This document shows positions 2,653 to 58,852 of a stretch of DNA of 64,000 nt, in pieces. Made by a program: the position numbers and the translations under genes. The stretch spans positions 30,631 to 94,630 of the forward strand of contig DUNO01000023.1 in assembly GCA_012839295.1 (NCBI GenBank), written 5' to 3'. The notes beneath the pieces are model-generated. The model was given only the letters and a program-made list of their open reading frames with translations. It searched no databases and was not told the origin of the DNA. This DNA comes from Clostridiales bacterium (GTDB taxonomy: Bacteria; Bacillota; Clostridia; Lachnospirales; Lachnospiraceae). Position 1 is the stretch's first letter. Every line of letters begins with the position of its first letter.

Positions 2653-2764
2653 CTCCCCCTCCTTCTTCTTCTTCTTCTGGGAGGCTTTGGCCTCCTTTTT
2701 TGGAAACTATGACCTCCTCTTTTTGGAAACTATGATCTCCCCTTTTTTTGAGAATATGCCTCCG
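2653..2764 (-). repeat. Tandem GGAGG-loop-(C/T)(C/T)TCC hairpin array immediately upstream of the AP2-like CDS
   Basis: Minus strand: GGGGAGATCATAGTTTCC AAAAAG AGGAGGTCATAGTTTCC AAAAA AGGAGGCCAAAGCCTCC CAGAAGAAGAAGAAGAA GGAGGGGGAG acttga ATG. Confidence 0.75.
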
Positions 2765-19080: not shown

Positions 19081-19195
19081 ACAAAAAACCGCCTGAGCTT
19101 TTGCCCAGGCGGTCGACATTCATAAATCAACTTCATATAGCGAAGCCTTACATCGGTCCCCTATGGTTTTCCCACATATCCGCCAGTTCCGATAT
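19081..19195 (-). ncRNA. ZTP riboswitch (pfl motif) with intrinsic terminator
   Basis: Minus strand ATCGGAACTGGCGGATATGTGGGAAAACCATAGGGGACCGAT...GACCGCCTGGGCAAAAGCTCAGGCGGTTTTTT; downstream gene is pflB. Confidence 0.88.
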
Positions 19196-19201
19196 ATCTA
19201 A

Positions 19202-30394: not shown

Positions 30395-30730
30395 GGTCCG
30401 GCATACAAAAAAACCGGCCATAGAGCCGGCATTAAAGAATTCCTGCATGGTACGAGGATAGTCCTATCCACATGTTCCTACAGCGTAAAATATTCTTTAA
30501 GCAGCGCTCCATCAAATAGTCTCCCCCAAAAAACAGGTGAGCCTAGTCTCCCAAAAAAACCTGTGAGACTAAGAATGATGACAGTTGTATGGTTATTCAC
30601 CATACCCCCAGCAGTAAATAATCAGGTCTTTACCACTTCGGCACTGTTTCCTTTCACTGCGTTCTTCTATGCCTGACATATCCAGCAGTATACTTTTAAA
30701 CAATGCAACCTCTACCATAAGCAATATGTA
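30395..30730 (-). ncRNA. Lysine riboswitch (L box) with terminator, upstream of dapA
   Basis: Minus strand GGTAGAGGTTGCATTG...AAAAGTATACTG...AGTGAAAGGAAACAGTGCCGAAGTGGTAAA...TTTACTGCTGGGGGTATGG...CAACTGTCA...GGGAGACTATTTGATGGAGCGCTG, then GCCGGCTCTATGGCCGGTTTTTTT. Confidence 0.8.
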
Positions 30731-41539: not shown

Positions 41540-41630
41540 GGACAGATGGGGGGGAAAACCTCCAAGGGACAGGAGGGAAAACCCTCCAAAGAACAGGAGG
41601 GAAAAAACCTCCAAGGAACAGGAGGGTTAG
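41540..41630 (+). repeat. Tandem ~25-bp SD/anti-SD hairpin array upstream of TPR gene
   Basis: gGACAGATGGGGGGGAAAACCTCCAAG / GGACAGGAGGGAAAACCCTCCAAAG / AACAGGAGGGAAAAAACCTCCAAGG / AACAGGAGGGttagtATG. Confidence 0.88.
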
Positions 41631-41631
41631 T

Positions 41632-43035
41632 ATGATTTGCCCGAATTGTGGAAGTAATATGTCGGACAAGAGAAAACGCTGTGAGAGATGTGGCAATGAT
41701 CTTACAATCTACAAAAAGGTATTGTCAGCTTCTAATATTTTCTATAATGATGGACTTGCAAGAGTAAAGGTAAGGGATTTATCGGGAGCGATCATATCCC
41801 TGCGGAAAAGCCTTGAATTAAATAAAATGAATGTAAATGCAAGAAACCTTTTGGGTCTTGTATATTATGAAATGGGTGAGATGGTTGCGGCCTTAAGCGA
41901 GTGGGTTATCAGCAGGCATTTTAAGCCTGAGGATAATGACGCGGAGGAATATATCGGCAAGATACAGTCAAACCTTACAAAGCTGGAATCCTTAAACCAG
42001 GCAATAAAGCGCTATAATACGGCCCTGGGCCTGGCAAAGCAGGGGAGTGATGACCTTGCGATTATCCAGCTGAAAAAGGTAGTCAGCTTAAATGCAAATT
42101 TTATCCGTGCCTATCAATTGCTGGCGCTGCTGCTGATTAAGACGGGGGAGAAGGACAAGGCAAGAAAATACCTCCAAAAGATATCCCGGATTGACGTGAC
42201 GAATACAACTACATTAAAATACCTAAAGGAGATCGAGGTTGCCGCTGCAGCAAAGGATTTAAGCAGCAATCCCGAGGCGGAGAAGCCCTCCTCCTCCGGT
42301 GCGATTATGCCCATTTCCTCTTACCGGGAGGACAAGCCTAATATCATGGCTTATATCAACCTGGTAATCGGTGTTGTGATTGGGCTGGCGGTGGCAGCAT
42401 TTTTAATTGCACCGACCATTAAGAAGAATATGGTGTCTTCTGGAGGCGATTCCGGATATACGGATACCAACTATACTGCAGAGCAGATTGAACAAAAGGA
42501 TAAGCTTATCACCCAGCTCCAGACAGAAAAGGAGCAACTGGAAAAGGACAAAAAGGAGCTCCAGGCGCAGATCGACAGTCTGAACAGTGCAGAGGATAAG
42601 GATGTGTATGCAGGGCTAATGGAAGCTACACAGATATACCTGGCTGAGCTGGCAAAGCCGAAAAACCAGCAGGATCTGGTTGCGGTGGCAGATCAGTTAG
42701 CCGGAGTTGATGATACCGGGTTTGAGACCGATGCCGCTAAGCAGCTCTATAGTGAATTGAAGGCAGCGACCTATCCGAAGGCCGCTAAGACCCATTATGA
42801 TGAGGGTCACAGCCTGTATAGCAAAGGAAAATATGAGGACGCTTTAGTCCAGTTAAAGCAGGCCATGGTCTTTGATCCAGAGGACGTGGACGCTGTGTAT
42901 TTTGCAGCAAGGGCTTATCATAGGCTGGATGATAAGAATAATGCAGCCGTTTATTATAATCTGGTTATCAATGATTTCCCGGATTCATCACGGGTAGCAG
43001 ACGCGAAAGATTATTTAAAGGAAGTACAGGAATAA
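41632..43035 (+). CDS. TPR-repeat membrane protein with N-terminal zinc ribbon
   Basis: MICPNCGSNMSDKRKRCERCG; TPR repeats; TM IGVVIGLAVAAFLIAPTI. Confidence 0.85.
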   Translation: MICPNCGSNMSDKRKRCERCGNDLTIYKKVLSASNIFYNDGLARVKVRDLSGAIISLRKSLELNKMNVNARNLLGLVYYEMGEMVAALSEWVISRHFKPEDNDAEEYIGKIQSNLTKLESLNQAIKRYNTALGLAKQGSDDLAIIQLKKVVSLNANFIRAYQLLALLLIKTGEKDKARKYLQKISRIDVTNTTTLKYLKEIEVAAAAKDLSSNPEAEKPSSSGAIMPISSYREDKPNIMAYINLVIGVVIGLAVAAFLIAPTIKKNMVSSGGDSGYTDTNYTAEQIEQKDKLITQLQTEKEQLEKDKKELQAQIDSLNSAEDKDVYAGLMEATQIYLAELAKPKNQQDLVAVADQLAGVDDTGFETDAAKQLYSELKAATYPKAAKTHYDEGHSLYSKGKYEDALVQLKQAMVFDPEDVDAVYFAARAYHRLDDKNNAAVYYNLVINDFPDSSRVADAKDYLKEVQE

Positions 43036-54756: not shown

Positions 54757-54880
54757 CAGTGTGAAATGCAGAGCATTTCACATCCGACATTGAGTGACCT
54801 GACGGCCAGATGATCGTTAGTGTGAAATGAAAATCATTTCACATCCGGCACCCGATGGCTTAACGGCCAAATGTTTGTCA
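54757..54880 (+). repeat. Dispersed repeat family 2, copies 2 and 3 in tandem
   Basis: agTGTGAAATGcagagCATTTCACAtccgacattgagtgacctgacggccagatgatcgtt agTGTGAAATGaaaatCATTTCACAtccggcacccgatggcttaacggccaaatgtttgtca. Confidence 0.85.
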
Positions 54881-57290: not shown

Positions 57291-57358
57291 AAAAGGGAGG
57301 CAAAAGCCTCCAACAAAAAAAGGAGGCGAAAGCCTCCAAAAAGAAGGAGGCTTGGGCA
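57291..57358 (+). repeat. Tandem ~25-bp SD/anti-SD hairpin array forming the araA 5' UTR
   Basis: aaaaaGGGAGGCaaaaGCCTCCaaca / aaaaaaGGAGGCgaaaGCCTCCaaaa / agaaGGAGGCttgggcaATG. Confidence 0.88.
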
Positions 57359-58852
57359 ATGTTAAAGAGTAAAGAGTACAAATTCTGGTTTGCAACTGGT
57401 TCCCAATCATTATATGGTGATGAATGCCTGAGAGAGGTTGCGGAGCATTCAAGAATTATTGTTGAGGCATTAAATAAATCAGGGAATTTACCCTTTGAGG
57501 TTATTTTAAAGCCAACCTTAATTGACAATGTATCCATCCGTAAGGTATTCAATGAAGCAAACGGGGATGAAAGCTGCGCCGGTGTTATCACCTGGATGCA
57601 TACCTTTTCTCCTGCGAAGTCCTGGATCCTTGGACTTCAGGAATACAGAAAACCGTTGCTCCATCTGCATACACAATTTAACGAAGAGATTCCCTACGAC
57701 ACCATCGATATGGACTTTATGAATACAAACCAGTCCGCACACGGTGACCGTGAGTTTGGACATATGGTTACCCGTATGGGCATTGAGCGTAAGGTAATTG
57801 TAGGCTACTGGAATGATGGGGAGGTCCAGAAACGGATTGCAGACTGGATGAGAACCGCAATCGGCGTAATTGAAAGCAGCCATATCAGGATCCTGCGTGT
57901 CGGTGACAATATGAGAAATGTTGCCGTAACAGAGGGCGATAAGGTAGAAGCCCAGATTAAATTCGGCTGGGAGATTGACGCATATAACATCACGGATATT
58001 GCCGAGTATGTACAGGCGGTATCAAAGGGTGACATTGATAACCTGGTAGATGAGTACTACAGTAAATATGATATTTTACTGGAGGGCAGGGATGCGGCTG
58101 AATTCAAGCGGCATGTAGCAGTACAGGCAGGAATTGAAATCGGCTTTGAGAGATTCCTGGAGGAAAAGAATTATCATGCAATTGTAACTAACTTTGAAGT
58201 GCTTGCGGGCCTGCAGCAGCTTCCGGGTCTCGCGATCCAGAGGCTGATGGAAAAGGGCTATGGTTTTGGCGGGGAAGGTGACTGGAAGACGGCAGCCATG
58301 GTCCGCCTTATGAAGATCATGGCTCAGGGCATCAAGGATGCGAAAGGTACCTCCTTCATGGAGGATTATACCTATAACCTTGTGAAAGGAAAGGAAGGAA
58401 TCCTTCAAGCCCACATGCTGGAGGTTTGCCCTACCATTGCCGAAGGTGCTGTTGGAATTAAGGTTAATCCCCTGTCCATGGGTCAGAGGGAGGATCCGGC
58501 ACGTCTTGTATTTACTTCAAAGGCGGGTAAGGGTGTTGCTACTTCCCTGATTGATCTGGGTAACCGCTTCCGCTTATTAATCAATGATGTGGAATGCCTG
58601 CCCCAGGATATCCCGATGCCTAAGCTTCCTGTAGCGACTGCCTTCTGGCGTCCGGAGCCGAATCTGGCTACCGGTGCGGAAGCGTGGATCTTAGCAGGTG
58701 GTGCGCATCATACAGCCTTCTCCTATGACTTAACTGCTGAGCAGATGGGCGATTGGGCTGCAGCGATGGGAATCGAAGCGGTGTTCATTGATAAGGACAC
58801 TACCATCAGAAGCCTGAAGAACGAGCTTCGTTGGAATTCGGTTGCCTATTAA
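57359..58852 (+). CDS. araA: L-arabinose isomerase
   Basis: KEYKFWFATGSQSLYGDECLREVAEHSR; HTFSPAKSWILGLQEYRKPLLHLHTQFNEEIPYDTIDMDFMNTNQSAHGDREFG. Confidence 0.96.
   Translation: MLKSKEYKFWFATGSQSLYGDECLREVAEHSRIIVEALNKSGNLPFEVILKPTLIDNVSIRKVFNEANGDESCAGVITWMHTFSPAKSWILGLQEYRKPLLHLHTQFNEEIPYDTIDMDFMNTNQSAHGDREFGHMVTRMGIERKVIVGYWNDGEVQKRIADWMRTAIGVIESSHIRILRVGDNMRNVAVTEGDKVEAQIKFGWEIDAYNITDIAEYVQAVSKGDIDNLVDEYYSKYDILLEGRDAAEFKRHVAVQAGIEIGFERFLEEKNYHAIVTNFEVLAGLQQLPGLAIQRLMEKGYGFGGEGDWKTAAMVRLMKIMAQGIKDAKGTSFMEDYTYNLVKGKEGILQAHMLEVCPTIAEGAVGIKVNPLSMGQREDPARLVFTSKAGKGVATSLIDLGNRFRLLINDVECLPQDIPMPKLPVATAFWRPEPNLATGAEAWILAGGAHHTAFSYDLTAEQMGDWAAAMGIEAVFIDKDTTIRSLKNELRWNSVAY

Follow-up and report, generated by a model that had tools for sequence, protein, structure and literature searches.

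Translational riboswitch platforms that sequester an SD use a logic of anti-SD and anti-anti-SD segments, and RNA thermometers are comparable. Structured elements of another kind are the REP, BOX, RUP and ERIC sequences, short intergenic palindromes that are scattered over genomes.

Two described families of leader repeats are relevant here. The TAACTGA direct repeats of the Beggiatoaceae are lineage-specific and are found in 2–6 copies, in a single orientation, 5′ of many unrelated starts including those of essential genes; a translational role has been proposed for them, and the heptamer itself has no SD character or predicted structure and occurs mostly in leaders that lack an SD (PMC4679880). 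In Streptococcus gallolyticus, expression is set by the copy number of GCAGA repeats in the pil1 leader, through the frame of a leader peptide and transcription attenuation (PMC3894217). No description of repeated or tandem SD leaders, or of SD-linked intergenic repeats, was found in the open-licence literature.

Here we describe arrays that alternate an SD with its complement and that end at the working SD of a gene. The analysis starts from a window of 64,000 nucleotides (the whole stretch of DNA that was analysed) taken from a 6.36-Mb draft genome of a member of the Lachnospiraceae, hereafter the source genome.

Results

An SD/anti-SD array upstream of a zinc-ribbon/TPR gene

The sequence at 41540–41632 reads as an array of SD (GGAGG) and anti-SD (CCTCC) blocks with a pitch of 24–25 bp, located upstream of a gene encoding a zinc-ribbon/TPR protein and ending at its 3′ side in GGAGGGTTAGT-ATG. 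The features of the array and its gene are as follows.

41540–41554, plus strand: relic of the ancestral leader, GGACAGATGGGG(GGG), constituting a degenerate SD 1; counterpart of the conserved GGACAGGTGGGG SD region in TPR orthologs (direct reading, comparison of ortholog leaders)
41559–41563, plus strand: anti-SD 1, CCTCC (direct reading)
41572–41577, plus strand: internal SD 2, GGAGGG (direct reading, pattern scan)
41580–41587, plus strand: anti-SD 2, AACCCTCC, which is complementary at all 8 nt to the terminal SD GGAGGGTT and pairs with it in the predicted minimum-energy fold (reading, fold)
41596–41601, plus strand: internal SD 3, GGAGGG (direct reading, pattern scan)
41608–41612, plus strand: anti-SD 3, CCTCC (direct reading, pattern scan)
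41621–41628, plus strand: terminal SD, GGAGGGTT, directly 5′ of the ATG at 41632 (direct reading)
41632–43035, plus strand: gene for a zinc-ribbon and TPR protein of 467 aa (Pfam TPR_11, 1.7e-21)

The first three blocks read GGGGGGG (41548–41554)-aaaa-CCTCC (41559–41563), GGAGGG (41572–41577)-aaaa-CCCTCC (41582–41587) and GGAGGG (41596–41601)-aaaaaa-CCTCC (41608–41612), and the terminal block reads GGAGGG (41621–41626)-ttagt-ATG (41632). The original prediction had counted four SDs and three anti-SDs in this leader. All three anti-SDs are present; the first SD, however, is a degenerate GGGGGG, so that the count becomes three exact SDs and one degenerate. The pitch of about 25 bp that had been proposed agrees with the period of 24–25 reported by TRF (score 109–115). 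The plus strand inside the array contains zero terminator-like sites and the minus strand three; a sense-strand intrinsic terminator was rejected because the plus strand has no site combining a stem with a U-tract.

Two further arrays are present in the same window.

57296–57353, plus strand: second array, comprising GGAGGCAAAAGCCTCC, GGAGGCGAAAGCCTCC and the terminal SD GGAGGCTT, with a predicted fold that masks the terminal SD by AAGCCTCC (z = −5.0; pattern scan, fold)
57359–58852, plus strand: araA, L-arabinose isomerase, 3′ of the second array (AraA_N, 1.2e-80)
2654–2763, minus strand: third array, degenerate (GGAGATCATAGTTTCC, GGAGGTCATAGTTTCC, GGAGGCCAAAGCCTCC, followed by GGAGGGGGA), preceding the gene at 1783–2646 (TRF, pattern scan)

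Over the window as a whole the hairpin pattern occurs 7 times against 0.28 expected, a number reached by 0 of 100 shuffles.

A search of the window against Rfam at gathering thresholds returned only a lysine riboswitch (30494–30722, minus strand) and a ZMP/ZTP riboswitch (19096–19200, minus strand), both located away from the arrays. Five array loci searched at permissive thresholds gave only chance-level matches, to eukaryotic snoRNA and miRNA models and far under the cut-offs. No Rfam aptamer matched over the arrays in the window or at these five loci, and a known riboswitch or Rfam cis-regulatory family was rejected for lack of any covariance-model match above chance level over the arrays. 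A TRF repeat at 30517–30571 lies inside the lysine riboswitch and has no relation to the SD/anti-SD arrays. The window also contains, at 54758–54873, a 61-bp tandem repeat that is present twice and includes an inverted repeat (TGAAATG...CATTTCACA); the nearest congener has similar-looking sequences in some of its leaders (L245, L262).

Placement and sequence specificity in the source genome

The tandem SD-antiSD-SD pattern matches 104 times in the whole source genome, at approximately 50 places. Placement was examined in regions, mostly of 12 kb, fetched around the tandem matches (540 kb in total), and only the starts of open frames with 60 codons or more were considered in reach. A start was in reach for at least 41 of 51 SD-antiSD-SD clusters, each of them on one strand and 0 on both, compared with 18% of the GGAGG sites outside arrays; the pattern is therefore not equally common away from starts or in the antisense orientation. 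The 10 clusters without a start in reach include five that are distal parts of counted arrays or have a start slightly farther away, one that precedes an apparent murB starting with TTG, and three that resemble coding sequence.

When all 1024 5-mers were scanned for the same architecture in the 540 kb, GGAGG gave 99 matches, its four permutations 0–1 and the others a mean of 0.4, a contrast that is inflated because these regions were picked for GGAGG arrays (the whole-genome count of 104 was made without such a choice). Units are 20–32 nt long and fall in all residues modulo 3, with multiples of 3 not favoured, which indicates that the arrays are not coding repeats; a coding tandem repeat was rejected on this basis. 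The 3′ end of 16S rRNA was searched for by pattern with no match (probably because the rRNA operon is missing from the draft or the pattern is poor), and the canonical anti-SD was assumed throughout.

The genes located 3′ of arrays, identified by eye from their N-termini, include gyrB, gyrA, lepA, hisS, aspS, gatA, rsmH, cdsA, mazG, fba, pfkB, cheW, a lacI-type regulator, a BMC shell protein and two potassium-uptake regulators. They have no shared function, and essential genes are among them. The two potassium-uptake regulator genes (TrkA/KtrA-like; L233, 3293 and 5395) are adjacent and have one array each, the second of which has the terminal SD GGAGAATT and a matching internal SD, GGAGAAT. 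A dispersed mobile repeat of the REP or MITE type was rejected, since the copies lie before starts, in one orientation and with locus-specific spacers; 16-mer hairpins are, however, shared.

Taxonomic distribution and a second architecture

The sequence AAGCCTCC-N5-12-GGAGGCTT occurs 13 times in the source genome, 4 times in the nearest congener compared and 0–2 times in other relatives, with 0 matches for the reversed-pattern controls. The hairpin GGAGGNNAAAKCCTCC is found in 24 of 34 congeners (48 in the source genome, then 28, 25, 19, 18, 16 and fewer), and its reversed-pattern control gave one match in total across the congeners. The family sample comprised 397 genomes from 334 genera; 395 genomes from other genera of the family contained at most 3 hairpins each, and a hairpin followed by a second SD was absent from every other genome of a 399-genome phylum sample. 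The sequence AATCCTCC-N5-12-GGAGGATT was found 11 times in the source genome and at most 2 times elsewhere in the class and family samples. A reversed pattern is also matched by arrays of at least two units, and the taxonomic counts used cleaner patterns. An exact-pattern scan of GTDB contigs revealed, among the matches listed, chance palindromes in many phyla. The tandem SD/anti-SD ladder is common in one genus and was not found elsewhere among the genomes searched.

Within the genus, related units in sister species precede other genes (carB, recA, ilvC, leuB, flgD and nusA), and 16-mer hairpins are conserved over many genes and species. Another set of congeners has a second architecture, in which a unit of 48–49 nt, GGAGGATAAATCCTCC-GTTATAAGTA-..., is present in one or two copies and ends in GGAGGATT-ATG, upstream of araA, ileS, serC, carB and other genes. 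Its spacer is 32–33 nt long at 30 of 42 loci and 30–36 nt at all but two. At five of these loci the spacer has a near-identical counterpart immediately 5′ of the first hairpin, which points directly to tandem duplication. The pitch in the nusA leader of another congener is 50 bp. The loci with the second architecture (L355–L394, several congeners; for example L370, L364 and L390) have the conserved GTTATAAGTA, a near-constant spacing, and then an SD and ATG.

Covariation and predicted folding

In the source genome, the nucleotide that follows the terminal GGAGG and the one preceding the nearest CCTCC are complementary at 28 of 36 loci (13.8 expected); the maximum in 5000 shuffles was 24, and 28 was never reached. 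All three flanking bases match at 24 of 38 source-genome loci (10.4 expected) and, in an independent test, at 24 of 36 loci in other congeners (13.6 expected), with p < 1/5000 in each case. Both sides are swapped together between species in orthologous gyrB leaders (GGAGGATT/AATCCTCC, GGAGGAAT/ATTCCTCC and GGAGGTTT/AAACCTCC). The potential helix between the terminal SD and the anti-SD is 8 bp in length, typically 2 bp longer than the local hairpin with which it competes.

Over 38 loci the median predicted energy is −10.6 kcal/mol for the local hairpin and −12.25 kcal/mol for the masking helix, with a gap between them of no more than approximately 3.5 kcal/mol in all but two; the masking helix is the longer at 26 loci and the local one at 3. 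Predicted folds of the TPR and araA leaders place the terminal SD within an 8-bp helix (z = −4.0 and −5.0, respectively). Its partner in the TPR leader is AACCCTCC, the second of the three anti-SDs, and the last unit folds into a hairpin enclosed by this helix; the last anti-SD matches the terminal SD poorly (5 bp). The energies, folds and covariation thus describe predicted helices that are mutually exclusive and one of which masks the SD of the gene, as in an SD-sequestering switch. The translational element class put forward in the original prediction fits this anatomy, in which the 8-bp helix would mask the terminal SD.

The substitution count covered 160 parsed units, none with more than one change, and applied equal mismatch limits to both arms. 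There were 30 changes in anti-SDs and 6 in internal SDs. The C>T change of the anti-SD arm preserves G-U pairing and was found 16 times; its mirror, G>A in the SD arm, was found 3 times. This bias suggests retention of the internal SDs in that role, as supporting evidence only because the units of one array are not independent. The distal (5′) units at L035, L048 and L329 often have decayed anti-SDs (CTTCT, TTCTTCT) beside intact SDs, and these decayed forms are still able to pair with GGAGG via G-U pairs.

Origin and turnover of the arrays

The TPR orthologs of 29 congeners have a short, array-free leader, many of them ending in ...GATTAGAACGGACAGGTGGGGATGAT-ATG, which indicates that the TPR array is young. 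The GGACAGATGGGG of the source genome forms the 5′ end of that array, and its ACAGG/SD is repeated by the later units. Most simply, the array would have arisen in the source lineage after its split from the nearest relative compared (83% protein identity). That relative also has no array at araA, gyrA, cheW and many other genes; the genes at L068, L056, L058 and L051 have arrays in both genomes, with different copy numbers. The gyrB leader contains arrays of 1–6 units in approximately 15 species and none in approximately 14.

The units are locus-specific and their spacers differ between loci of the same layout, as had been noted originally: spacer likeness is 0.66 within an array and 0.38 between loci, and spacers also resemble the stretch 5′ of the first SD. 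Because adjacent spacers are far more alike within a locus than between loci, individual arrays do expand by local tandem duplication. This result refines the earlier proposal that the layout is a recurring regulatory design and not one local slippage event. Recurrence is upheld by dozens of unrelated genes, the orientation toward start codons, the presence of arrays in most species of the genus and units that vary from locus to locus, and a regulatory role is putative; local duplication belongs to the history of each array.

Discussion

Proposed mechanism

We put at slightly better than even the chance that every array works in cis at the ribosome-binding site as a stacked translational switch, with no recognised sensor. 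The anti-SD (CCTCC plus 2–3 upstream bases) would have two alternative partners, an internal SD or the terminal SD. In the ON state it would pair with its immediate 5′ neighbour, the internal SD, in a small hairpin that can form first in transcription and that would leave the terminal SD free; in the OFF state it would pair with the terminal SD, and the resulting 8-bp helix would mask the true ribosome-binding site. Because the local and masking helices are mutually exclusive and close in energy, initiation would be set by their balance. Since SDs outnumber anti-SDs by one (n+1 against n), one of them would always be spare, either the terminal one or one farther upstream, and the internal SDs would act as anti-anti-SDs that may double as docking or decoy sites for the 30S subunit. 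An array could be born by local duplication of the leader SD and the stretch preceding it, with the addition of an inverted copy of the SD, and its copy number could then shift. Beyond the sequence anatomy, its placement, recurrence across and restriction to the genus, covariation and predicted energies, which are shown above, we infer that such leaders fold in this manner in vivo, that translation is affected, that selection acts on them, and that the balance itself is tuned rather than a bound factor deciding it. Several observations weigh against a switch: turnover is rapid, with the arrays of TPR, araA, gyrA and many other genes missing from the nearest relative compared; the targets share no function and some are essential; no sensor domain was seen; and the last anti-SD of the TPR array itself pairs poorly with the terminal SD. 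Only tentatively would we go on to propose that the ladder represents a previously undescribed class of translational control in a Clostridia genus, one that possibly arises gene by gene from a duplicated ribosome-binding site and its complement, with initiation depending on how many SDs compete and how they are balanced, perhaps sensing the supply of free 30S subunits, and with no ligand or protein sensor.

Alternative explanations

The strongest rival to the switch is neutral, SD-specific duplication, which we regard as rather unlikely while giving it serious weight: a burst of repeats in which template switching at the SD and replication slippage produce inverted SD copies and tandem duplications. 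The arrays would then precede starts only because GGAGG lies there, and would be tolerated because the terminal SD stays usable. Such a process would account for their lineage-specific and rapid gain, for targets without a functional theme, for spacers that are near copies within an array and similar to the stretch ahead of the first SD, and for the ancestral SD relic with which the TPR array begins; inverted local copying of the SD by mutation would also yield covariation, and SD-templated birth would likewise put arrays before start codons. However, no other 5-mer builds comparable arrays, so that the neutral process would need to be specific for the SD, and the inversion ends after 6–8 nt with the spacer remaining direct, unlike ordinary fold-back copying. 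Retention also argues against it, in that gyrB arrays persist in approximately 15 species with paired changes, the 32–33 nt spacer of the second architecture is kept across unrelated genes, and internal SDs have changed less than anti-SDs.

The remaining explanations appear improbable to differing degrees. The opposite strand of a hairpin with a T-rich spacer resembles an intrinsic terminator, which would stop antisense transcripts at gene starts; the three minus-strand sites in the TPR array and the A-rich spacers that follow CCTCC are consistent with this idea, but many spacers (CCTAAATAAA, AAGAACA, AGAAGACA) would give a weak or absent antisense U-tract, and the constant SD/anti-SD stem, the working SD at the end and the match to the bases after the terminal SD would be left unexplained, making such a role improbable. 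A little less probable still is that the same two folds exist and the choice between them is made by a dedicated RNA-binding protein or trans RNA. The 16-mers conserved over many genes and species, together with the GTTATAAGTA stretch, would suit a shared trans factor, whereas loop and spacer sequences vary from locus to locus and, in the first set, from species to species. The same conserved 16-mers and inverted repeats, and the adjoining GTTATAAGTA conserved in one set of species, could point to a DNA operator, with the 16-bp palindrome (GGAGGATAAATCCTCC and its relatives) bound by a transcription factor or nucleoid protein over start regions; yet the sites share bases with the ribosome-binding site and terminate with a half-site near the ATG, one of them is located within an operon, some twelve bases past the upstream stop codon, changes are mostly in the anti-SD arm rather than equal in both arms, and the closing bases vary by locus while matching the local terminal SD. 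We consider an operator the least probable of these explanations.

Should the arrays indeed be switches, one genus would have dozens of unrelated genes, including both gyrA and gyrB, under a translational control built from repeats that is gained and retuned by duplication within short evolutionary times. Repeat copy number would be tied directly to initiation rate, and the leaders would provide a natural case of competing SDs in one leader as well as a simple tunable part. If they are neutral instead, ribosome-binding sites in the genus would be the target of a mutational process not known so far, itself a novelty.

Comparison with known systems

The SD/anti-SD ladder is apparently an undescribed kind of translational switch. 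Its closest genome-wide analogue is the set of TAACTGA repeats of the Beggiatoaceae: both are lineage-specific and precede starts, but the units of the arrays carry an SD and its complement and are predicted to fold. The arrays share with REP, BOX, RUP and ERIC elements their short length, structure and scattered occurrence, and differ in being built from a ribosome-binding site and ending in a working SD. Like the GCAGA repeats of S. gallolyticus they are tandem repeats in a leader, with a copy number that slippage can change; unlike those repeats, their units are not multiples of 3 and they end at an SD.

The closest known mechanism would be that of the riboswitch platforms with anti-SD and anti-anti-SD segments. 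As in those platforms and in RNA thermometers, the anti-SD of an array can mask the terminal SD and has an alternative partner 5′ of it, with mutually exclusive helices of similar stability. Unlike riboswitch platforms, the arrays have no recognised aptamer or sensor, the putative switch is repeated 1–6 times, and rather than one regulon it serves dozens of unrelated and partly essential genes, in one genus as far as searched.
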